Assembly: GCA_024408655.1 (NCBI GenBank) | Contig: JAKSUV010000006.1 | Span: 1-52,581, forward strand | Length of the DNA: 52,581 nt | Direction: 5' to 3' | Source of the DNA: Bacilli bacterium | GTDB lineage: Bacteria > Bacillota_I > Bacilli_A > RFN20 > CAG-826 | Shown here: positions 31,164 to 52,540 of the stretch, piece by piece | Numbering within the stretch: position 1 is the first letter of the stretch | How the letters are laid out: the number at the start of each line of letters is the position of its first letter | Translations under genes and position numbers: made by a program | The notes under the pieces: generated by a model | Seen by the model: the letters and a program-made list of their open reading frames with translations, nothing else | Told to the model about the DNA's origin: nothing | Databases searched by the model: none

Positions 31164-33266
31164 CTATTTTTTATTATTGTTCTTGTTACTATCGATTGAA
31201 TTTCTAAAGACAACATAACGTTGCCATAAGAATTCTAAGGCAAAGTTAAGGAGCATGCAAATAATCGTGGCGAGTAATTCTGGCATTGCCCAACCACATA
31301 AATCGTTTAAGCACGGGATGACAAGCACACTTTCGCTTAACACAATGCCGTTGACTAAGAAAGCTTGTAAGAACAAGGAAGCCGGTGCAAAGAAGACGTA
31401 GAAGAGGAAGGCTAGTGCCATACTCTTAGGGACGTTTGTTGCGCTCTTAAAGGTAAACTTGCGGTTAAAGGTGAAGTTCCAAATCACCGAGATAACAAGT
31501 GGGATGATATAGGAGACCGAGGCCATAAACTCGAGTCCAGGTTTTTTAGGATCCCAAATACTAATCATGATCCAGTTCGTGCAGAATTGAATCGCGCCCG
31601 CCGAGAAAGAGAAGAGAATAAATTTAAGTAGCCGCATTCTTTCGGCATGGGCTTTACTCTTATCTTTCGCACTCTTATCGTGGAGTTCAATGTAATTTTT
31701 CTTATTCGCCTTATGGAGTTTCTTAAAGACAAAGTAATTTGGATTAAAGAGTTTGTGACGTTCCATATCGGGTTCATAAGTCTTGACGACTGGAATATAT
31801 TTCTTCACACTACTTAAGTTTGGAATATAACCAAGTCCAACGCCAGCGACTGCAGCCGCGCCGACCGCGCCCACGTTTTGCGGAGCCGCTACTGTTTCGA
31901 CTTTCTTACCTAAGATATTAGCGAGCATCTGACAAGAAATCGGTGAGATTGCTCCACCGCCGACAAAACGGACAGCATCAGCAATCTTAATTTTCTTTTC
32001 TTCGCATTCCGCCATCCAACGGATGTGGTAATAAATACCTTCAAGAACTGCCCGAATCATATCGGTCTTCCCGTTTTCTAGTTTTACGCCAAAGAAGGTG
32101 CCGGCCGCTTTTGGATTTTCAAACGGACAACGGTTACCATGGAGCCAAGGCGTAAAGATGACACCATTTGCTCCGGGTGGTACTTTCTTCACCTTTTCGT
32201 TTAAATAAACGAAGAGGGCTTTACTCTTATCTTCGTAAGTTTTATATTCCCGGTGCGCATGGAGATAAAGCACGATTTCATCCCGTGCCATATGATCACG
32301 CACCCACTCTAAGCATTTACCCGCTGTTTCCATTTCAGCAAAGTAATTGTATTTATTATCTTCAGCGCCTTGAATTGCCGCAATCATCGAATTAGCGTCA
32401 ACCATCCGTTTATTAACAACCGTTGATACCCAACCAGAAGTGCCGCAATAAATATGCGTATCGCCAACTTCCGTCGCACCCGCGCCAACACCAATTAGAC
32501 TTGCATCACTACCGCCACCAAAGACTTTAATCCCTTTGACAAGACCTAACTCTTTCGCCGCTTTTTCGGTCAAAGTACCAACACAAGCGGTTGAAGAAAC
32601 AACCTTGGGTAAATGGTCCATATTAACATTAAAGAGTTTACAAAGCCGTTCACTCCAGCACATTTTCTTGGGCCGGTTATCAAATAAGAAAGTGCTATAA
32701 GCATCATCATAAGTGGAAACAAAATTACCGGTTGTCCGGGTAATTAAATATTCTTTCACGTCGAGCCACTTATAAACTTTCTTAAAGATGTGTGGTTCAT
32801 GGGCTTCCACCCATTTATATTTCCATAATGGGTCTTTCACCGAACTAGAAACGGCACCAGTAATGGCGACACTTACTAAGAGTTTATGGAGGTTAGCGCC
32901 CGCAATTTGTAAGCCATAAGAAATACCTTTCTTGAGTTCTTCGCCCGAACGTTGGTCCATGTATGACATCGCCCGGCGGAGGTGATGACCGTTTTTATCA
33001 ACGAGCACTAAGCCTTGCGCTTGGGAACAGAAAGAGATACCTTCAATATCTTTCGCTTTGACTTTCGCTTCGGCTAAGACCTTTTTCGTGGTATGTTCCA
33101 TGCCTCGCCACCAGTCGTTAGGATCTTGCTCCGCCCCACCATTAGCTAAGGTATAAAGGGGATAAGATTCACTTGCCCCCGCGATAAGATTAATCTTTTT
33201 ATCAATTGTAAAAAGACAGGTTTTGACACCCGTAGTGCCAATGTCATAAGCTAGAATGTATTTCAT
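31164..33266 (-). CDS. FGGY carbohydrate kinase fused to a GtrA membrane domain
   Basis: The 700-residue protein has a xylulokinase-like FGGY kinase at residues 1 to about 510: YDIGTTGVKTCLF (phosphate 1), GISFCSQAQGLVLVD, YMDQRSGEEL, GGGSDASLIGVGAG, FTPWLHGNRCP and RFVGGGAISPISCQMLANI. A charged linker (about 511-544) leads to a GtrA domain (545-690) of four helices with the paired signatures NFTFNRKFTF and NFALEFLWQRYVVF. The kinase phosphorylates a sugar or polyol; GtrA proteins are linked to moving polyprenyl-phosphate sugars across the membrane. It has an AAGGAGG site and follows the aldolase gene by 10 bases. Confidence 0.88.
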   Translation of the reverse strand: MKYILAYDIGTTGVKTCLFTIDKKINLIAGASESYPLYTLANGGAEQDPNDWWRGMEHTTKKVLAEAKVKAKDIEGISFCSQAQGLVLVDKNGHHLRRAMSYMDQRSGEELKKGISYGLQIAGANLHKLLVSVAITGAVSSSVKDPLWKYKWVEAHEPHIFKKVYKWLDVKEYLITRTTGNFVSTYDDAYSTFLFDNRPKKMCWSERLCKLFNVNMDHLPKVVSSTACVGTLTEKAAKELGLVKGIKVFGGGSDASLIGVGAGATEVGDTHIYCGTSGWVSTVVNKRMVDANSMIAAIQGAEDNKYNYFAEMETAGKCLEWVRDHMARDEIVLYLHAHREYKTYEDKSKALFVYLNEKVKKVPPGANGVIFTPWLHGNRCPFENPKAAGTFFGVKLENGKTDMIRAVLEGIYYHIRWMAECEEKKIKIADAVRFVGGGAISPISCQMLANILGKKVETVAAPQNVGAVGAAAVAGVGLGYIPNLSSVKKYIPVVKTYEPDMERHKLFNPNYFVFKKLHKANKKNYIELHDKSAKDKSKAHAERMRLLKFILFSFSAGAIQFCTNWIMISIWDPKKPGLEFMASVSYIIPLVISVIWNFTFNRKFTFKSATNVPKSMALAFLFYVFFAPASLFLQAFLVNGIVLSESVLVIPCLNDLCGWAMPELLATIICMLLNFALEFLWQRYVVFRNSIDSNKNNNKK

Positions 33267-33276
33267 AAACTCCTCC

Positions 33277-34050
33277 TTAATGTTGATCCTTGAGTTTTGA
33301 ATATTTCTTTTTATAGATAAAATGTTGAAGCGTCACATCAAGCCACCGCATCGGCCGTAACACACTTTGATAACGCGCCGCTAAAGTGTTCTTTAATTTA
33401 ATTAACTTTACCGCTTCTATATCTTCCTCCACCGCTTCACTGCCATGACCAAACATTTGGGCGTAATCATCTAGATACGGAAGACTTTCATCGTGCGCAC
33501 TTTTTACTTCAGCGACTTCTTCATATAGACGCTGAGCATAATTTTCTAATTTAAGTGCATCATTAAAGGCAGACTCATAATCACGATCAAAAGCAATTGC
33601 GCCGTGCCGCGCCATTAATAAAACATTAGTGGCAGGCGAACGTTTAAGCACCTCAACGATATTCTTAACTAACTTCTTTGTCGATGGAAGTGCATAACGT
33701 GCGACGGGAGCGAAGGGTTTATCAATTTCATCCACACTCACCGCGGTCGCATAGTTTTGGTGAGTATGTAAAATAAAATTCACATCCGGCCGGTTTTGAT
33801 AAATCGCCGCGTGGACCTTCTTTTCTCCACTCGGCTTCACATTACCTTCATAAGAGCAATCAGCGATTTTTACTACCACTAAATTATCGCGGTTCACTTG
33901 ATCATAAGGGATCCCGCTTGGGGTAATCACAAATTCTTCGTCACTAATCCGCGCCGAAATATTTCCCCAGGTTCTCGCCACTAGTTTCTTTTCAACTAAG
34001 GCTAAGCCTGCTTTAATGATTAAGTCTTTGGCTTCAGTAATCGTATACAT
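33277..34050 (-). CDS. Class II aldolase (fuculose/ribulose-phosphate family)
   Basis: The 257-residue protein has zinc ligands in LHTHQNYATAV and the later ARHGAIAFD, a phosphate-binding region ARTWGNISAR and TPSGIPYD, and a glutamate in PSGEKKVHAAIY. Relatives split or epimerise sugar phosphates such as fuculose-1-phosphate or ribulose-5-phosphate. Its ATG overlaps the aminotransferase stop (TAATG) and it precedes the FGGY kinase-GtrA, so the three would handle one sugar or polyol phosphate. Confidence 0.88.
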   Translation of the reverse strand: MYTITEAKDLIIKAGLALVEKKLVARTWGNISARISDEEFVITPSGIPYDQVNRDNLVVVKIADCSYEGNVKPSGEKKVHAAIYQNRPDVNFILHTHQNYATAVSVDEIDKPFAPVARYALPSTKKLVKNIVEVLKRSPATNVLLMARHGAIAFDRDYESAFNDALKLENYAQRLYEEVAEVKSAHDESLPYLDDYAQMFGHGSEAVEEDIEAVKLIKLKNTLAARYQSVLRPMRWLDVTLQHFIYKKKYSKLKDQH

Positions 34051-35546
34051 TATTTTTGCTCAGGAAATTCGACTTGACCGCAGTTTTTAAACACCCGTTC
34101 AAAGCGATCTAAAACATCATCAATCATCTTTTCATCATAGGCGGCTGAAGTATATAAACGGCTACCGGCTAAGGTGACAATCCCTTCGGCCATATACGCC
34201 GCACCCATATGTTCCATTTCTTTTTGGCGTTGACTCGTTTCTTTTAAAACGTGTGGTAACGTCCAAAGCTTTTTCCAGTTAATCGCAAAGTGCATGGTAC
34301 CAACACTATCAAGGTGACAGACACTACCAATATTAAACGCCACAAACGGGAGATTATATTTCTTAATTAAGGCTTGTAAACCTTTAGTTAAACGGTCACC
34401 CATCCGACCCGCGACTTCACACGCGTTCCGTTTTTGAATTTCGCAAATCGTGTAATAACCCGCGACACAACTAAGTGGAGTGGCGGCCATCGTACCACCA
34501 CAAAGGGCTTTCTTAATCTTCTTACCCGAAGAATCTAGACCAGCGCCTAAATGGGCCATACAATCCGCGTGACCACCAACGCCACCGGCGCCCGGATAGC
34601 CACCAGCAATGATTTTACCAAAGATCGTTAAATCAGGATTAATCCCGTAATAGGCTTGGGCACCGCCTAAGCCAATCCGGAAGCCGCTCACGACTTCATC
34701 ACACACAAGTAACGCACCATATTTATGCGCTAAACGTTCACAACCTTGAACAAACTCTTTTGTCACTGGGCGAGTACCCGATTCTGGACCAATGGGTTCA
34801 ATATAAACGGCTGCGGTCCCACCTTTAAAACAGTTCTTCCGTAATTTTCTTTCTAGGTCTTTTAAATCACCCGGGAAGAATTCATCGGTGTGTTTAAAGA
34901 CAAACTTAGGAATCCCTTCACTTTTAATCCATTTGGTGCCTGGAATTCGCATACCATACGCCATTTGATCAGACCAGCCGTGATAAGCTCCACCCATTTT
35001 TAAGACGTTTTTATGTTTAGTCTTTAAACGAGCGATTCTTAAAGCGCACATACACGCTTCGGTTCCTGAACCAAGCATCCGGAAGCGCTCAACGCTCGGG
35101 ACACATTCTTTAATCTTTTGGGCGAGTTTATATTCGTATTCGTGGAATAAACCCGTACTTGGTCCGCAGGTATTTAATAATTCAATGACTTTAGAACGAA
35201 CAAAATCATCGTTACTACCTAAGATCGTTGGACCACCCGCTTGGAGTAAATCATAATATTCGTTACCATCGATATCGTAGAGTTTAGCGCCTTTGGCTTT
35301 GGTAATCACAATGGGGAAAGGATAGTTAAAGGCAAGGTTATGTTGGACACCGCCCGGAATCACTTCCTTGGCTTTAGTAATCATCGCCTTTGATTTTTTA
35401 CATTTAGTTTCGAAATAATTTTCAACATAATTTTTTAACGCTTCGGGTTTTACCGAATACATTGGTTTCTTAATTAATTCATCGAGTTCTTTAATGACTT
35501 GATTAGCGTCAAGATATTGATCGATGGCAAATCCGTTATAGGCCAT
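34050..35546 (-). CDS. Class III PLP aminotransferase (glutamate-1-semialdehyde aminomutase-like)
   Basis: The 498-residue protein has GSTEAC-type LGSGTEACMCALRIAR, NVLKMGGAYHGWSD, VCDEVVSGFRIGLGGAQ and the PLP lysine in TIFGKIIAGGYPGAGGVGG, a close match to GSA aminotransferases. No heme-pathway genes are near; the aldolase and kinase partners suggest amination of a sugar-derived aldehyde or ketone. The start at 35546 is chosen over an ORF extension to 35738, which runs into gdhA. TTG 15 bases upstream is an alternative start. Confidence 0.87.
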   Translation of the reverse strand: MAYNGFAIDQYLDANQVIKELDELIKKPMYSVKPEALKNYVENYFETKCKKSKAMITKAKEVIPGGVQHNLAFNYPFPIVITKAKGAKLYDIDGNEYYDLLQAGGPTILGSNDDFVRSKVIELLNTCGPSTGLFHEYEYKLAQKIKECVPSVERFRMLGSGTEACMCALRIARLKTKHKNVLKMGGAYHGWSDQMAYGMRIPGTKWIKSEGIPKFVFKHTDEFFPGDLKDLERKLRKNCFKGGTAAVYIEPIGPESGTRPVTKEFVQGCERLAHKYGALLVCDEVVSGFRIGLGGAQAYYGINPDLTIFGKIIAGGYPGAGGVGGHADCMAHLGAGLDSSGKKIKKALCGGTMAATPLSCVAGYYTICEIQKRNACEVAGRMGDRLTKGLQALIKKYNLPFVAFNIGSVCHLDSVGTMHFAINWKKLWTLPHVLKETSQRQKEMEHMGAAYMAEGIVTLAGSRLYTSAAYDEKMIDDVLDRFERVFKNCGQVEFPEQK

Positions 35547-44761: not shown

Positions 44762-47212
44762 TTATACCGGGGTATGATTATATAAATCCCACACTAATGT
44801 GCCATACGCTTCTTTAATTGGAACAATGCAAGCACGAGGATTTTCAAAACTAGTAGAATTATTGTTATGAAAACAAAGATACAAATTACCATCAGGATCG
44901 TCAAAAATCATTGCGTGCCCTCCGTCAGAGGCGCCTTCACAAATGTCTTTTGCATAAAGAAGCCGTTCTTGTTGCTCCCAACAATATGGATTTGTAAGTT
45001 CTTTATCACCATATTTATTACAAACTATGCCAACACAATATTTATCGTAAGGATCAAAGGATGACGCAATCATCACTAAGCTACCATCTTTAAGTTTACG
45101 GATAAATTGGCCTTCAAAAACGCCTTCGTATTGCTTTCGCCAAGGCACATAGGTGTCCCCATCAACCAACTTCACGCTCTCCATTTCACGGATTTGTGAT
45201 AAAGGCTCAATTCCTGGGTCAGTCTTAAATGGGACAATAGTCAATCCGTTACAAGTCCTATCATCGCGGCCATAACAATGTATCAAATACGGTTGTTCTT
45301 TGCCATCTTCCATCTTCTTAACATATAAGGTGCCATCGATGCCGCCGCACTGACTACCAACAATTTTGTGACTCACAATGTGTCCAGGACCGGGGCCGTT
45401 GTCAGGATTTGTAGAAATCATCTCAAAACCCTCAGTTAAAGATTTGCTTTTAAAGATGACTGTGCCCTGATTACTAGATTTGTCTACATAAGTAGTAAAC
45501 AAATAATAATTATCCCCATATTTATGTAACTCGGGAGCCCAACGATATGTATCTATAAACGGATATTGTGACTCATCAACAATATCTTCATTTAATAATT
45601 TCCAGCCACTTTTGAAGGTATCTTTGGCGCCGTACACTGACCATTTATCGCCATCAAAGCTTCCGCATGTACCATACATATAATAATTAGTCCCATCACG
45701 ATAAATAAACGGATCGCGAATTTTGCGACCATCAGGTAAAAAATCAACAATGTAATCTTCTTTTTTACAAGCACCTCTAACCTCAAGGCCAGTTGGAACG
45801 TCAATTCCGTCTTCATATAAGAAATCAGTCAAAAGACGATCAACCGCACAAATTCTTGCAAAATTTGTTCGATAAGCAAATATTATTTTATTATTAGCCA
45901 CTTTGATAATGTAATCGTCATTATCGCGTAACTCCTTGGCTAACTCTTGCGATTCAGAGCGATGATCAGTTAGAATAATTTCTCTATCGGTAGAAGGTGC
46001 ATGCTCGTTAACAATAGTTAGATTTTTTTCACCATGATATCTTCTAGCATCATTAATTTGGCGAGCACCATGATAGCAAACTCTAGCATCTTCCCCTTCA
46101 TAAACAATTTGATAATCGTTAGTGATGTGCAAAATATTCACGGTCGCTGTGGATGTAGCGGTAAATGAAACATCAGTATCTGGCATTTCAAAAGTGAGCA
46201 TTCCAGTTTCAGAATCATAAGTATATTCGCTTAAACCACTAATATTACTTAGTTCTGGCATGCCGTATATATGAGTAGTATCTTTATCGGGGATAAATTT
46301 TAATTTTACTTTTGATCCGACGATATACCCTTCTTGTTTTGGATCTTCGTAGAAATGACAATTAGATAATGTGCCGGTAACAGTGTGTTTAACTAAAGAA
46401 TCAGCGGTAGCACTAACCTCAACATCAGTAGTTACTTCGCTAATCGTAATGGTTTTAGTTTCATCATCATAAGTGGCATTTTTACCTGTAACCTCAACTT
46501 TTTGATCATTCAAGAAATAACCATAATCAACATTAACCGAGAATTTTACATTTTTATCACCTTTTTTAATTTCTTTGGCTAGGATTCTTGAATTACCGTC
46601 AATATTACAATTTGTGCCAGTAAAACTAAATTTTAAAAGAGTATAAGCCTTTGCGGTAATATTTACTGGTCCCACTACTTCAGAAATAATGATTTTTTGA
46701 GAAGCGGGATTGTAATCGACATTTTCGCCCTCTATCTTTAAATCGTCTTTTCCTAAAGCATAACCGGAATCAACGCTAATTGAAAATTCAACATTTTTAT
46801 CGCCTTTTTTAAGTGGCTTATCAGTAATATCGCGAATTCCGCCAATGTTACAATTTTCGCCATGGAAAGTGAAGCTTGGTTTAGTGGTCGCATCCGCGGT
46901 GACAATAACATCACCGACTACTTCACTAATGGTAATCTTGTGAGTTACTTCATCATAAGTAGTGTTTTTACCAGTAATCTCTACATCACTTTGAATTAAG
47001 ACAAAGTCGTATTCAGGGTTAATAGTAAAAGTAAGATTTTTATCACCTTCATATATCTTAGTTTCGTATTTGTCTTCGTATTCAATATTGCAGTTTGTGC
47101 CTTCAAAGGTAAATTGATAGGCGGTTGGTTGATCTGTATGCGGGGTAGGGCCGCAACCATACATAAATAAAAAAGACGATACTAAAGGAACAATAACTAA
47201 ATTTTTTTTCAT
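44762..47212 (-). CDS. GH43-like glycoside hydrolase lipoprotein with tandem repeats
   Basis: The 816-residue protein has lipobox MYGC. Residues about 30-270 hold three tandem repeats of about 80 residues (pattern F.G.NCNI, then KGDKN, then Y....TITISEV) plus a fourth diverged unit. From about residue 490 a five-bladed propeller matches GH43: RDPFIYRDGTNYYMYGT with the catalytic base Asp, WAPELHKYGDNYYLFTTY, the pKa-modulating Asp in GGIDGTLYVKK, the acid Glu in FEGQFIRKLKDGS and GHAMIFDDPDGNLYLCFH. It would cut arabinan or xylan-type glycans outside the cell; the substrate is not certain. Confidence 0.85.
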   Translation of the reverse strand: MKKNLVIVPLVSSFLFMYGCGPTPHTDQPTAYQFTFEGTNCNIEYEDKYETKIYEGDKNLTFTINPEYDFVLIQSDVEITGKNTTYDEVTHKITISEVVGDVIVTADATTKPSFTFHGENCNIGGIRDITDKPLKKGDKNVEFSISVDSGYALGKDDLKIEGENVDYNPASQKIIISEVVGPVNITAKAYTLLKFSFTGTNCNIDGNSRILAKEIKKGDKNVKFSVNVDYGYFLNDQKVEVTGKNATYDDETKTITISEVTTDVEVSATADSLVKHTVTGTLSNCHFYEDPKQEGYIVGSKVKLKFIPDKDTTHIYGMPELSNISGLSEYTYDSETGMLTFEMPDTDVSFTATSTATVNILHITNDYQIVYEGEDARVCYHGARQINDARRYHGEKNLTIVNEHAPSTDREIILTDHRSESQELAKELRDNDDYIIKVANNKIIFAYRTNFARICAVDRLLTDFLYEDGIDVPTGLEVRGACKKEDYIVDFLPDGRKIRDPFIYRDGTNYYMYGTCGSFDGDKWSVYGAKDTFKSGWKLLNEDIVDESQYPFIDTYRWAPELHKYGDNYYLFTTYVDKSSNQGTVIFKSKSLTEGFEMISTNPDNGPGPGHIVSHKIVGSQCGGIDGTLYVKKMEDGKEQPYLIHCYGRDDRTCNGLTIVPFKTDPGIEPLSQIREMESVKLVDGDTYVPWRKQYEGVFEGQFIRKLKDGSLVMIASSFDPYDKYCVGIVCNKYGDKELTNPYCWEQQERLLYAKDICEGASDGGHAMIFDDPDGNLYLCFHNNNSTSFENPRACIVPIKEAYGTLVWDLYNHTPV

Positions 47213-47218
47213 ATGATT

Positions 47219-47224
47219 ATTATA
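47219..47224 (-). promoter_or_regulatory. Leaderless -10 box of the GH43 lipoprotein
   Basis: TATAAT-AATCAT-ATG, with 6-base spacing and no Shine-Dalgarno site. Confidence 0.65.
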
Positions 47225-47242
47225 CATTATTTATTCATAAAT

Positions 47243-47354: not shown

Positions 47355-49676
47355 TTAAATGCAGAAAGCGGGGGCAACGGCACGGCTTCTATCAACTATA
47401 ACATTACTCCATGTTCCATCACCTTTTATGAAAAGAGCACAATCATGGTATGACGGCGAATGGGATCTAGTCCAATATGCACAAGGAGCGGTTGCACCAA
47501 TAAGGTATTTTTTCCTGTCAGGATTCTTTTTATAATATTCATATGGTTCGCCTTCGTGCTTCCAATCACTATCCTCCAGGTTATATTCTTTAGCTGAAAT
47601 AGCAAAGATTTCTACGTCCTCGTAAACATCATCATAATATTTACCATATTCATCTTCACTATATACAATAGAAGGTTTTGAAACTTTTTTGCAATAAAAC
47701 CGCAATTCATATGGTAGGCGCGTTGAAAAGCTGTCTTTAAGGAAATTGTCCAGCGGGCCGTTAACATAGCAACCATGTTCTTTGATATCGTTTGAATATT
47801 GAACAAGAAATGGACTAATTGAATAATCCTCAGTAAGTAACTCGACAGTTTCAATCGTCAATCCAGCTTTTCCGTTTCCGTCAGAAAGATTATCGTGAGA
47901 AAAACCGATAATCCGGAAAGTATATCTTTCATCTTCAACATGTCTTAATTCGCCAAGAGTAAAAAATTTTCTAATTTGTTCGGTCGGTAACGATGCCAAT
48001 TCGGAAATTGTATCCCAACTTGCGTTTTGAAAAATGCTATAGCTAGGAAGAAAGACATAGAAGGCAATCGTTTGAATACAATCCGCATTCGGACTAATAA
48101 CAATTTTGTGCTCAGTTTGATTATAAGTAACGAAATTATTATATGGTGAAGGCAAAACATCGCAAGTATACCAGTCCGTGCCATTCATTCTTATTAAGAT
48201 GTTACTAGCAGCAACGCTATCTACCCCGTCCCCAGATAAGATAATTTCTGTTGTCTCACTGTAGTCTATATATTTACCAGCAATACTACAAGTGACGCCA
48301 TATCCGTTAGCTAGGAGATGGTAACCCCCGCTAGTCACCGCATCCGCGGTAATATGAACATCGCCTTTAACAAATCTTCCTAATATTGTTACTTTGGCTT
48401 TAGTAAAATCTTGACCATCGCTTATATCTTCAATTGTGTATGCTTTCGTACTAATTATTGGTGATTCATTAATCGTTATACCAATATTTTGAGGAACGGT
48501 ATAGATTTCGTTTTGTGAATTATTAGCGGTAAGAGTAAAAACAAAATCGTCCCCTCGTTTCGGATTATTTTCTTTTTCAAGAGTCAAATTACTTAAAGTC
48601 TCTTCGCATTCATATTCAGGTCTATAATCAGATACCCAAACTTCAATAATATCAGACGTAACACGAGATAACGAAGCGTTTATATGAATTTGACTGGCGC
48701 CTCTTTTATAATCATACGTATACTCAATTTGATCAGGACCGCATAGTTCAATGTCTTTCTTTTCCGGTATTCCATAATGTTCAATGTCCGCAAATCTAAA
48801 ATATAAATCAATTTCATTGTTATTAGGATATGTTTGTTTTTCAAGTTCAATCGAACGATTATTATGTAGCTCAATGTTATGATAATAAATCGCATTAACG
48901 CTATCTGGTGTATTTTCATTAATAACATAATTATCATCGATAATTTCGTCATATATCCAGCGATTAAAAGACCAACCCGCAAATGTGCGTTCACCTAGTT
49001 TAGCGACTTGTGTGGATGCATCAACGCATTCCCCCCAAGTTTTCCCGTAAGGCATTAAAATTTCATCTTGAGCATCTTCGCTTAATGCGCCTCCATTAGG
49101 CAAAAATTTAACAACTTTATATCTTTCGGTAACAGTAGGAACAACGTTGATATTATTATCGCATTTAGGAGTAACAATAATTTTATTATTTTTCACTTTG
49201 ACATCAGCCGAATCCGGTTTTTCTACACTAGCAGTAATAGCGCAATATTTATCAATGGTGAACGGAAAAGAAATTTGATTACGACTTCCTTTAGCGAAAG
49301 GAATTGATTTTATATCCATTTGCATATGCGGCGGAACATTGATAATCGTAACATATGAAACTTGATCTAAACTTGTAACTGAGACAGTAACGCTAAAATT
49401 AGCGTTCTTTTGTGGAGTAATGATTAATTCTTCCTTTAGATAATCAAAAGTGCACTCATTCCCTTCAACATTACAAATTGTTTTAGTCACAACAAATCCA
49501 CTATCAGTGGTATAGGGCACTGTTATTGGAGTAAAATCATCTTCTGCAAAAGAAAGAGCGGAAACAGTAGGCTTAAAATGCTCGGTTGCATTAATGGTAA
49601 TAGTATATTTCTTTGGCCCACAACTTGCTAAAAAAGAAGCAAACATTAGTGGCATAACAAATGCAAATTTATTCAC
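47355..49676 (-). CDS. Large lipoprotein with a C-terminal DUF6273-like module
   Basis: The 773-residue protein starts at GTG 49676, chosen because TATAAT lies exactly 6 bases upstream and the following sequence makes a good signal peptide with lipobox FLASC. The modules parallel the 809-residue protein: FTPITVPYTTDSGF, IITPQKNANFSVTV, an InlB-like segment (ERTFAGWSF), and a C-terminal module with FRIIGFSHDNLSDGNGKAGL, YWTRSHSP and the end APAFCI. It is probably a surface-anchored ligand-binding protein. Confidence 0.75.
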   Translation of the reverse strand: MNKFAFVMPLMFASFLASCGPKKYTITINATEHFKPTVSALSFAEDDFTPITVPYTTDSGFVVTKTICNVEGNECTFDYLKEELIITPQKNANFSVTVSVTSLDQVSYVTIINVPPHMQMDIKSIPFAKGSRNQISFPFTIDKYCAITASVEKPDSADVKVKNNKIIVTPKCDNNINVVPTVTERYKVVKFLPNGGALSEDAQDEILMPYGKTWGECVDASTQVAKLGERTFAGWSFNRWIYDEIIDDNYVINENTPDSVNAIYYHNIELHNNRSIELEKQTYPNNNEIDLYFRFADIEHYGIPEKKDIELCGPDQIEYTYDYKRGASQIHINASLSRVTSDIIEVWVSDYRPEYECEETLSNLTLEKENNPKRGDDFVFTLTANNSQNEIYTVPQNIGITINESPIISTKAYTIEDISDGQDFTKAKVTILGRFVKGDVHITADAVTSGGYHLLANGYGVTCSIAGKYIDYSETTEIILSGDGVDSVAASNILIRMNGTDWYTCDVLPSPYNNFVTYNQTEHKIVISPNADCIQTIAFYVFLPSYSIFQNASWDTISELASLPTEQIRKFFTLGELRHVEDERYTFRIIGFSHDNLSDGNGKAGLTIETVELLTEDYSISPFLVQYSNDIKEHGCYVNGPLDNFLKDSFSTRLPYELRFYCKKVSKPSIVYSEDEYGKYYDDVYEDVEIFAISAKEYNLEDSDWKHEGEPYEYYKKNPDRKKYLIGATAPCAYWTRSHSPSYHDCALFIKGDGTWSNVIVDRSRAVAPAFCI

Positions 49677-49682
49677 CGCATT

Positions 49683-49688
49683 ATTATA
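49683..49688 (-). promoter_or_regulatory. Leaderless -10 box with a GTG start
   Basis: TATAAT-AATGCG-GTG, the same 6-base arrangement with a GTG start codon. Confidence 0.6.
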
Positions 49689-49730
49689 ACATAAATGTAA
49701 CAAAAAAAGCGACTAATTCCTCTTTTTTAT

Positions 49731-49770
49731 GTGTGGTGCCAACTAACGGGAAAAGCCTTGCTTTTATAAA
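49731..49770 (-). repeat. Intergenic lipoprotein-island element, copy c
   Basis: On the minus strand: TTTATAAAAGCAAGG, then CCCGTTAGTTGGCACCACACAT, close to copy d. It merges with the 3' end of the fic remnant. Confidence 0.55.
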
Positions 49771-49806
49771 GACAATAATCCCAATAATGTTGAATAAAAT
49801 GTCCGT

Positions 49807-50180
49807 AAATTTCTTTTCTTGCTCAAAATCATATTGAAGCGCTCTTTCTAAATCTCGATAATCGCCATAAGTCACTGAATCCCCATCTAGAACCCACTCT
49901 TTCTTTTTAAAATTGTAACTTCTGATTTGCCCGGGTCGTTTTAATATTCCATCAAACAAAGTTCGGTGAATAGTTAGAAGTTGCCCAACACTAAAAGTAA
50001 AGGAATCTTCAAAGATAATTTTCGCAATTCGAACAGAAATCTTATCCGCTTCTTCAGTTCGATCGCTTCGATTAGATTTAATTTTATAGTATGAATTAAC
50101 AATAATATCTAATTCATTAAGAGAAATCTCGCCTTCAATATATCGATTAGCGGCATTACTAACGAAGTTAGTTTTTTCAT
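49807..50180 (-). pseudogene. Fic family remnant, frameshifted after the start and lacking the core
   Basis: Translation from AACTTC onward gives NAANRYIEGEISLNELD, then RTEEADKISVRIAKIIFED, GQLLTIHRTLFDGILKRPG and KKEWVLDGDSVTYGD, closely following the N-terminal half of Fic AMP-transferases. Similarity stops after EQEKKF, before the HxFx(D/E)GN catalytic motif. The start ATG (50180, TATAAT 6 bases upstream) is followed by six As; seven would put it in frame. It is therefore both frameshifted and truncated. Confidence 0.75.
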
Positions 50181-50186
50181 AACCAC

Positions 50187-50192
50187 ATTATA
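50187..50192 (-). promoter_or_regulatory. Leaderless -10 box of the fic remnant
   Basis: TATAAT-GTGGTT-ATG; an intact promoter remains in front of the broken gene. Confidence 0.6.
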
Positions 50193-50239
50193 CCACTAGT
50201 GAAAAGATCGATAATTTTGTTTGAATGCGAGTGGGTTAA

Positions 50240-52441
50240 TTAAATGCAAAACGCAACCGTATAACCAAATTTATTATAAACATAATCTCGCGTTGCTTCA
50301 GTGCCAGAGTCTTTTATATAGTAAGCTTGGTGATAATCGTCGCCTTGTAAAATTGAACGGCTCCAATAACCAACTGGAAAAGGCGCAATACCGCTACCGA
50401 CCACTTTGCAGGTTTTCTTAATTCGTTTATCCGCAGGACAATCTGCGTAATAGGGGTAAACAGATCCTTCAGCATCCCAATAAAAGGCAGAGGTTAAATT
50501 TAATTCAGCTAGAGAAAGCGGGAATATTTTTGTATCACAACTTTGCATTTCTCTAGTATCATCCCAATTCCACACTAAAACGGGTTTACTTACTTGCTTG
50601 ATGCAAGATTGTAAATCCAATGGGAACATCGGAAAGAAAACATTTTGAAGATAATTATCATAAATGCCTCCACGGTAATCTTCTCCGACTCTTTCATCAA
50701 ACCTCTCGAAATAAGCATCACCGTTATTCTTTGTAATCACTTGCGCAAATTCGATAGTCATACTAGCCGTACCAGTTTTAGAAGTTAATTCATCGTGATT
50801 AAAGCCGATAATCCTAGCATCGTATGTAATATCAGCAACTTTAACTTTCTTGGTGTCACCAACACGGAAGAATGTCTCATGCCAACCATTTTCAGCAAAC
50901 TTATTGATTGTTGTCCAACTTAGTTTACTAAAGAATTCAAAACCCGGAACAGAAACATATATCCCGACATAATTATAAGGATAAGTTCCGGTTGATAAAG
51001 TAACCGTATTAGCTCCGCTATCGGTTATCGTAAAGTTTTTATATTGATCAGGACAATCAGTATCACTTAGACGATAAAGATTTCTATCTAAATCTTCGAT
51101 AATAACCCGTTCACGAGTAATAGTACTAGTACTCACTTCGTCACCACTAATAGAAAACGTTTTACCGATTTCTTGAATTGAAGCGCCGAACATATATCCA
51201 TCTTGGTCATAATCACCTTCAACTTGCGCGCCACAAACTAAGATATCCCATTCAAAATAATTTGCCTCAGTCGCCACGCCAGCGATTGAGAAATCATCGG
51301 TAATGTATCTAGCGTAAATTGTGACCTTAGCATTTTGACGATACGGGTCGGTGGAACAATCAATTTGATAAGCTTCCTTGGGTAATAATGTTCCATCGCT
51401 AAGCTTAATAGATAGCGAATGAGGAATAGTGTGTGTGCTAGTATTTGGCTCCCCTTTAATTTTTAAAGTAAAAACAAGGTTATGTCCACGTTCTACCAAG
51501 GCTGGTTTTGGCAGATCAGGACTTTCCATAAATAAACCAAAATCAATTGATGTAATTTCAAAATAATATAGATAATCAGTTGCTTTTATTATATAAGTTT
51601 TTGTTCTTACCGGTTGAACATCACTAATAGTAATTTTGGCGCTAAAATCAGTTAAACGTTGGTATGTAAAACTAGGTTCCGAGCCATCGCTAGCGAGGAT
51701 TTTAAAATATTGATCATCAGGAGGGATACGGTATTTATTTTGTCGTTCCTCTTTAACCGTCAAGTCTATCTCAACACTATCTGGCAAATAACGGCATTCC
51801 TTAATTTCTAATGTACTAGCGTCACTGTTATATAAACTTACGGTACGTTGACTTGATATAAGTTTTATTTGCGAATCAGTACTGTCATCGTTAGGAGTAA
51901 TTACTAAATTAAACCCCTCACTTCCCTCACTATATATGTATTCGAGCGTGTGCGAAGGGTTAACGACAGTACTATCGATAGTAAATCCATTAGTAATCGT
52001 ATAAGGAACGGTAATTGGAGAAAAATCACCTTTACGATAACTAACTTGTTCCTGGATTTGGATATTATTATCGCCAACTAATGTGACAGTACAAATTCTT
52101 TCTTTTTCGGTTGTGCTAGCGGTAATGACAATATCATCCGTTAAAGTAATATTAAGTTTTGCGTCCTTCGAATTGTAATTATAGTTAGTAAAAGATTTAC
52201 CGGCGGCATTAACAATCTGAACTTCGTTATCAGTTGGGTTAGCGTGCCCTCTTACGGGTAGAAAAGTAAAATTAAGTTCTGTTCCTTCTTGATATTTCCC
52301 TTCGGTAAACTTTTTCCCATCAGCGGTGTTTAAAATACAATCAGTGCCAGAAAATTTAACGGTATGTAAAGGTTTTTCGCCACAGCTTGTTAAAAGCGAT
52401 AACGGCATTAATGACATTAATAATAAACATATTTTTTTCAT
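50240..52441 (-). CDS. Large lipoprotein with a C-terminal DUF6273-like module
   Basis: The 733-residue protein starts at MKKICLLL (52441), with TATAAT 6 bases upstream; the ORF extension to 52531 would cover the promoter and terminator. It has lipobox LLTSC, beta modules including FSPITVPYTITNGFTI, and a C-terminal module with ARIIGFNHDELTSKTG, TKIFPLSLAEL, GYWSRS and the end TVAFCI. It is a paralogue of the lipoproteins at 40298, 42842 and 47355. Confidence 0.75.
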   Translation of the reverse strand: MKKICLLLMSLMPLSLLTSCGEKPLHTVKFSGTDCILNTADGKKFTEGKYQEGTELNFTFLPVRGHANPTDNEVQIVNAAGKSFTNYNYNSKDAKLNITLTDDIVITASTTEKERICTVTLVGDNNIQIQEQVSYRKGDFSPITVPYTITNGFTIDSTVVNPSHTLEYIYSEGSEGFNLVITPNDDSTDSQIKLISSQRTVSLYNSDASTLEIKECRYLPDSVEIDLTVKEERQNKYRIPPDDQYFKILASDGSEPSFTYQRLTDFSAKITISDVQPVRTKTYIIKATDYLYYFEITSIDFGLFMESPDLPKPALVERGHNLVFTLKIKGEPNTSTHTIPHSLSIKLSDGTLLPKEAYQIDCSTDPYRQNAKVTIYARYITDDFSIAGVATEANYFEWDILVCGAQVEGDYDQDGYMFGASIQEIGKTFSISGDEVSTSTITRERVIIEDLDRNLYRLSDTDCPDQYKNFTITDSGANTVTLSTGTYPYNYVGIYVSVPGFEFFSKLSWTTINKFAENGWHETFFRVGDTKKVKVADITYDARIIGFNHDELTSKTGTASMTIEFAQVITKNNGDAYFERFDERVGEDYRGGIYDNYLQNVFFPMFPLDLQSCIKQVSKPVLVWNWDDTREMQSCDTKIFPLSLAELNLTSAFYWDAEGSVYPYYADCPADKRIKKTCKVVGSGIAPFPVGYWSRSILQGDDYHQAYYIKDSGTEATRDYVYNKFGYTVAFCI

Positions 52442-52447
52442 TGCATT

Positions 52448-52453
52448 ATTATA
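52448..52453 (-). promoter_or_regulatory. Leaderless -10 box of the 733-residue lipoprotein
   Basis: TATAAT-AATGCA-ATG, almost identical to the box at 49683, as expected for duplicated genes. Confidence 0.65.
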
Positions 52454-52465
52454 ACATGAATATAA

Positions 52466-52490
52466 CAAAAAAAGAGCGATAAATCGCTCT
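52466..52490 (-). terminator. Terminator upstream of the 733-residue lipoprotein
   Basis: AGAGCGA / TCGCTCT forms a 7-bp stem followed on the minus strand by a T-run. It would end the transcript of the gene lying beyond the right edge. Confidence 0.8.
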
Positions 52491-52496
52491 ATTTTT

Positions 52497-52540
52497 ATGT
52501 GTTGGTGCCGACTAACGGAAAGGCACCACATTTATAAAAA
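52497..52540 (-). repeat. Intergenic lipoprotein-island element, copy d (best preserved)
   Basis: On the minus strand: AAATGTGGTGCC, then TTTCCGTTAGTC, then GGCACCAACACAT. GGTGCC and GGCACC form a perfect 6-bp stem around a 12-base loop whose sequence recurs in copies a-c. Confidence 0.6.

Follow-up and report, generated by a model that had tools for sequence, protein, structure and literature searches.

The contig analysed here (52,581 nucleotides from a Bacilli bacterium of the gut, hereafter the window) carries an ORF in which a sugar kinase of the FGGY family continues into a GtrA-type membrane domain. Is this ORF a genuine gene fusion and, if so, what does it reveal about the role of GtrA beside a sugar kinase? 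GtrA proteins are almost reflexively classed as lipid-sugar flippases; to our knowledge, direct flipping of lipid-linked sugars by these proteins has not been demonstrated. The window belongs to a metagenome assembly of 913 kb that is 66.6% complete, in which the fused domain was the only GtrA copy found.

The ORF starts with ATG, preceded by a ribosome-binding site (AAGGAGGA), and runs uninterrupted for 700 codons (Table 1). Pfam assigned residues 3-257 to FGGY_N (1e-45), residues 272-477 to FGGY_C (2.6e-26) and residues 548-687 to GtrA_DPMS_TM (PF04138; 3.2e-7), the last match spanning positions 1-117 of the 117-position profile and scoring 31.0 bits (Pfam cut-off, 26.1). The preliminary description, drawn from the sequence alone, had proposed a complete FGGY kinase and a complete, four-helix GtrA domain in a single uninterrupted frame, and both proposals were borne out. 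The kinase half is an FGGY carbohydrate kinase, as (i) both domains score above their cut-offs, (ii) the catalytic Asp and the ATP-site glycines are present, the motifs DxGTT, GG(S/G)D and GGG being near invariant in 90 relatives (DxGTT and GG(S/G)D in about 90/90), and (iii) its confidently modelled structure had the xylulose kinase of E. coli as its best PDB match (2ITM, E 6e-37). The other half belongs to the GtrA family PF04138, with a full-length domain above the cut-off and four long helices in an AlphaFold model of this half alone with 30 relatives (mean pLDDT 76). The NCBIfam model gtrA_1 (NF037976; cut-off, 50 bits) left the domain of the window unmatched and gave 12.8 and 14.8 bits to two separate relatives. 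In Foldseek, the sole high-probability PDB matches of the GtrA half were the dolichyl-phosphate-mannose synthases 5MLZ, 9EP0 and 5MM1 (probability 1.00, TM 0.54), whose transmembrane domain falls under the same Pfam model; as their E-value is only 0.04, these matches agree with the Pfam assignment and do not prove it. The linker between the two halves was modelled as helical at low confidence, with pLDDT below 50 for residues 525-539.

Table 1. Features of the window discussed in the text
Feature	Position	Strand	Basis
MATE transporter with C-terminal soluble extension of about 200 aa	28536..30515	+	
Lipoprotein-like protein, 203 aa	30526..31137	-	
Fusion ORF	31164..33266	-	
GtrA half, residues 547-700 and stop, four predicted transmembrane helices	31164..31628	-	Pfam, AlphaFold, Foldseek
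Linker, residues 531-546 (16 residues)	31629..31676	-	Alignment of fused and separate relatives; model
FGGY kinase half, residues 1-530, xylulokinase-like	31677..33266	-	Pfam, intact motifs, PDB fold match
Class II aldolase, same operon	33277..34050	-	Pfam Aldolase_II 2.8e-38; conserved catalytic residues
Class III (GSA-aminotransferase-like) aminotransferase, first operon gene	34050..35546	-	Pfam Aminotran_3 6.9e-45
Four proteins with C-terminal DUF6273, 634-809 aa	40298..44746 and 47355..52531	-	
GH43 protein	44762..47227		

The lipoprotein-like protein encoded after the fusion ORF has no family match, and a different lipoprotein-like gene occupies this place in the 99% relative (L033/L039). 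The MATE gene is convergent with the fusion ORF; a MATE gene adjoins the fused kinase in the three related species too, and in Mogibacterium-like genomes lone kinases adjoin weak MATE-like matches of about 580 aa. The DUF6273 proteins, one of which carries Listeria-Bacteroides repeats, enclose the GH43 protein, and this group is possibly a paralogue array of surface proteins.

Although the window stems from an incomplete metagenome, the chance that the ORF is an assembly or frameshift artefact is negligible: independent assemblies from three further horse-faeces species carry the same fusion at 99% (G134), 77% (L040) and 71% identity (G186/L034/L041), and a second fusion, separate in the kinase tree, in an Erysipelotrichaceae genome (L054) likewise speaks against an assembly error. 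In the bootstrapped maximum-likelihood tree of 80 kinases, the window and the three relatives formed one fully supported clade, sister to L064, in which the kinase and GtrA genes are separate and overlapping. L054, the fifth fused row, was placed among unfused relatives, and none of the bootstrap trees united the fused rows. As the fused rows are split in this tree, two separate origins of the fusion are most likely, with L054 as the less certain case. The ORF is thus a genuine but derived and rare gene fusion, a late merger rather than an ancestral arrangement. Relatives were absent from viral contigs, and a viral origin was rejected.

Could the fusion be a near-neutral read-through of neighbouring genes, with no functional coupling of their products? 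Unfused kinase and GtrA genes usually lie 3-50 bp apart or overlap, so that the loss of a stop joins them easily. Nevertheless, the fusion has been maintained across species that are 71% identical. Between the window and L034, residues 526-546 differ by seven synonymous and five amino-acid changes, a pattern like that of the rest of the protein; these changes are consistent with a translated linker, and the synonymous ones count against mere read-through. Met544 is the sole candidate internal start for a separate GtrA in the window, where no clear Shine-Dalgarno sequence precedes it, and L040 has an Ile codon (ATA) in place of this Met. A separate GtrA made from an internal start is therefore unsupported in both, but possible in L054, which retains a GGAG-like site upstream of its internal ATG, as read-through would have it. 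On balance, we consider read-through without coupling improbable.

In the window, the aldolase gene overlaps the stop of the aminotransferase gene, whose start was chosen from a 498-aa homologue, and 10 bp separate it from the kinase. This operon is one version of a conserved cassette that comprises a class III aminotransferase, a class II aldolase, often a TetR regulator, an FGGY kinase and GtrA. GtrA was also present in 58 of the 64 core loci, namely those with kinase, aminotransferase and aldolase, and missing nearby in the other six. The order aminotransferase-aldolase-kinase-GtrA on one strand was found in 50/58 four-gene loci, and kinase and GtrA are separate genes in 54/58, with spacings mostly between -25 and +50 bp. 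A TetR gene occurs in 40 core loci, usually between aldolase and kinase. In several loci, an aldehyde dehydrogenase gene separates kinase from GtrA or adjoins the kinase, and three aldehyde-dehydrogenase-bearing cassettes (L181, L182 and L184) lack GtrA. Carriers include a plasmid of Butyrivibrio fibrisolvens and the cultured anaerobes Fusibacter paucivorans and Sedimentibacter hydroxybenzoicus. Beyond the cassette members, no genuine gene family appeared in more than eight loci; two larger neighbour clusters consisted of reverse-strand ORFs overlying cassette genes, and the recurring families recognised by eye were mostly housekeeping genes (dnaX, recR, hisS, murC) common to closely related genomes. 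In the open-licence PMC literature, we found no paper that links GtrA to FGGY, and none that reports the fusion or the cassette. The cassette, found in many gut Firmicutes, is apparently undescribed so far.

Co-occurrence was assessed across 291 genomes of Clostridia. Seven of them carry the kinase subfamily, and the aminotransferase subfamily was detected in all seven plus one distant case (hypergeometric p about 2e-13); the seven include the seed genome, without which p is about 9e-12. Cassette-type GtrA occurred in 33/291 genomes, only two of which have the kinase, so its association is not significant (p 0.18): it was not found in five of the seven unbiased kinase genomes, and it stands alone, without the cassette, in 31 genomes, where its neighbours were varied and uninformative. 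Among 16 genomes picked by hand from the loci, the aminotransferase was present in 15 and the GtrA subfamily in 14, although many of these genomes have the genes scattered and most have the kinase away from the cassette; the selection favours relatives of the query. The link between kinase and aminotransferase is firm, and GtrA is an accessory that is frequent but dispensable. The genome of the window was the only one among 392 sampled genomes of its phylum to carry the aminotransferase, which suggests that the cassette was likely acquired from Clostridia.

What chemistry might the cassette perform? The aldolase belongs to the FucA-type class II aldolases: its catalytic Glu76 and the zinc ligands His95, His97 and His149 are conserved in 76-77 of 77 relatives. 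Most relatives' aldolases bear a second, degenerate aldolase domain, and that of the window is shortened. The aminotransferase retains the PLP-binding Lys311, a Lys in 78/78 relatives. In glutamate-1-semialdehyde (GSA) aminomutase, the Arg of the motif NSPVRAF binds the substrate carboxylate. The aminotransferase has QHNL-AF instead, without this Arg, and its substrate thus probably differs from that of GSA aminomutase, judging from this motif. No cassette protein reached a curated specificity cut-off: the scores were 305.6 bits for XylB (TIGR01312 equivalog; cut-off, 380.25), 75.9 bits for L-fuculose-1-phosphate aldolase (TIGR01086; cut-off, 400) and 243 bits for glutamate-1-semialdehyde aminomutase (hemL; cut-off, 527). 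Consequently, the chemistry of the pathway is assigned at the superfamily level. For the kinase, identity as a xylulokinase, fuculokinase, ribulokinase or gluconokinase was rejected, as none of the curated cut-offs was reached.

Some relatives have additional metabolic genes nearby, which are too narrowly shared to fix the substrate. In one genome (G179), genes for both subunits of an aconitase X-like enzyme, a family named by eye, lie upstream of the aminotransferase (L036 1-1026, L037 4353-6092), and related copies share a contig with a lone GtrA of the cassette subfamily in another (G101). In L185 (1-5423), the neighbours of a distant aminotransferase (47%) are a RuBisCO-like protein, a transporter-like gene and a sugar-binding regulator, which may point to a related pathway for sugars. 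At three loci (L137, L139 and L161), a split transketolase and an SCP2-like protein accompany a further class III aminotransferase; depending on the genome, this group adjoins either cassette-type GtrA or the aminotransferase/aldolase pair of the cassette.

From these sequences we infer a reaction type, direction, substrate class and GtrA role as follows. The stop between neighbouring kinase and GtrA genes was lost, and the kinase, held at the inner face of the membrane by its GtrA tail, would phosphorylate a ketose-like compound. The aldolase would then cleave the ketose phosphate into dihydroxyacetone phosphate (DHAP) and an aldehyde, or build it in the reverse direction; the aminotransferase would replace the carbonyl group of some compound in the pathway by an amine, and the aldehyde dehydrogenase would participate in some genomes. 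The GtrA part would serve as a tether and may also assist the substrate or product in crossing the membrane. To this reading as a whole, a membrane-tethered kinase born of stop loss that feeds a ketose-phosphate aldolase linked to a transaminase, we give about an even chance.

The preliminary description had gone further on one point. Its membrane-tethered kinase stands, with a C-terminal GtrA domain and fused homologues, but the suggested coupling of phosphorylation to the building of a surface glycan is unsupported, as no recurrent glycosyltransferase, nucleotidyltransferase or polyprenyl-phosphate-sugar synthase (GtrB) was found in the 64 core loci, where the partners are an aminotransferase, an aldolase, TetR and sometimes an aldehyde dehydrogenase. 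It is rather unlikely that, through the fusion, phosphorylation of a sugar is coupled to a lipid-linked sugar that GtrA would flip to serve teichoic acid or surface-glycan synthesis. Such a role would suit the nearest solved fold of the GtrA half, the membrane domain of dolichyl-phosphate-mannose synthase. It would also suit the characterised members of the family, which act in undecaprenyl-phosphate-sugar export, for example GtcA of Listeria, in which Arg95 in TM3 and Asn132 in TM4 are both essential (PMC7389260). An Asn in TM4, at the position of Asn132, is invariant in our aligned subfamily (an alignment without GtcA itself), but all aligned members have Phe at the position of Arg95. Since other GtrA proteins lack this Arg too, the Phe does not decide the flippase role. 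Overall, the gene content of the cassette is more suggestive of small-molecule metabolism than of the construction of surface sugars.

Within small-molecule metabolism, two alternatives to the proposed pathway both appear doubtful, if somewhat less so than a glycan role. GtrA could be a permease or importer of a small molecule that the fused kinase traps by vectorial phosphorylation. It occupies the gene place expected of a permease beside a sugar kinase, kinase and GtrA are the very pair that fused, twice, and no other transporter family is common to the cassette loci, albeit differing families could escape notice. On the other hand, GtrA is missing from some cassettes and stands alone elsewhere, and we know of no GtrA protein that acts as a permease of free sugars. 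Alternatively, the pathway could run in the biosynthetic direction, with DHAP and an aldehyde as starting materials for an amino-ketose or aminopolyol, and with GtrA exporting the product or anchoring the assembly at the membrane. Class II aldolases work in both directions, an aminotransferase together with a membrane protein suits the making and export of a product, and self-contained modules typically have a TetR regulator. Nevertheless, a kinase beside an aldolase usually marks a catabolic pathway, and the aldehyde dehydrogenase in several cassettes suits the disposal of an aldehyde.

More tentatively, the cassette may be a hitherto undescribed pathway of four parts that gut Clostridia would carry commonly and Bacilli rarely. 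GtrA would then be the membrane partner of the soluble kinase in small-molecule metabolism, as a transporter or docking platform, rather than a lipid-sugar flippase, and the fusion would expose this partnership. Operon structure and two fusions connect GtrA here with a sugar kinase, an aldolase and an aminotransferase, and the system offers a concrete test case for an alternative GtrA role. The findings point to an uncharacterised metabolic cassette in many gut Firmicutes, a more interesting object than the rare, derived fusion.

Four known systems invite comparison. The kinase half shares the fold, domain order, catalytic Asp and ATP-site glycines with xylulokinase (XylB), but its sugar-site motif is SQ(M/A)QG in place of GQMHG, and the fusion kinase bears a GtrA tail. 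Small gene clusters that pair a kinase with a class II aldolase are described as salvage systems, for example for 5-deoxyribose (PMC6079011); compared with that system, the cassette has no isomerase gene, adds an aminotransferase and GtrA, and has the second, degenerate domain in most of its aldolases. With GtcA and GtrA of teichoic acid and O-antigen glucosylation, the GtrA half has in common PF04138, the four helices, NF..NR..(T/V)F and the invariant Asn; unlike them, the subfamily shows the signatures SAG, FYxxFxP and MxxNxxxE, and its cassette loci lack GtrB or GT-C partner genes. Finally, in dolichyl-phosphate-mannose synthases of the 5MLZ/5MM1/9EP0 type, a GtrA-type membrane domain likewise forms the C-terminal part, behind a soluble enzyme; in those proteins the soluble domain is a glycosyltransferase with dolichyl phosphate as its substrate, and here it is an ATP-dependent sugar kinase.
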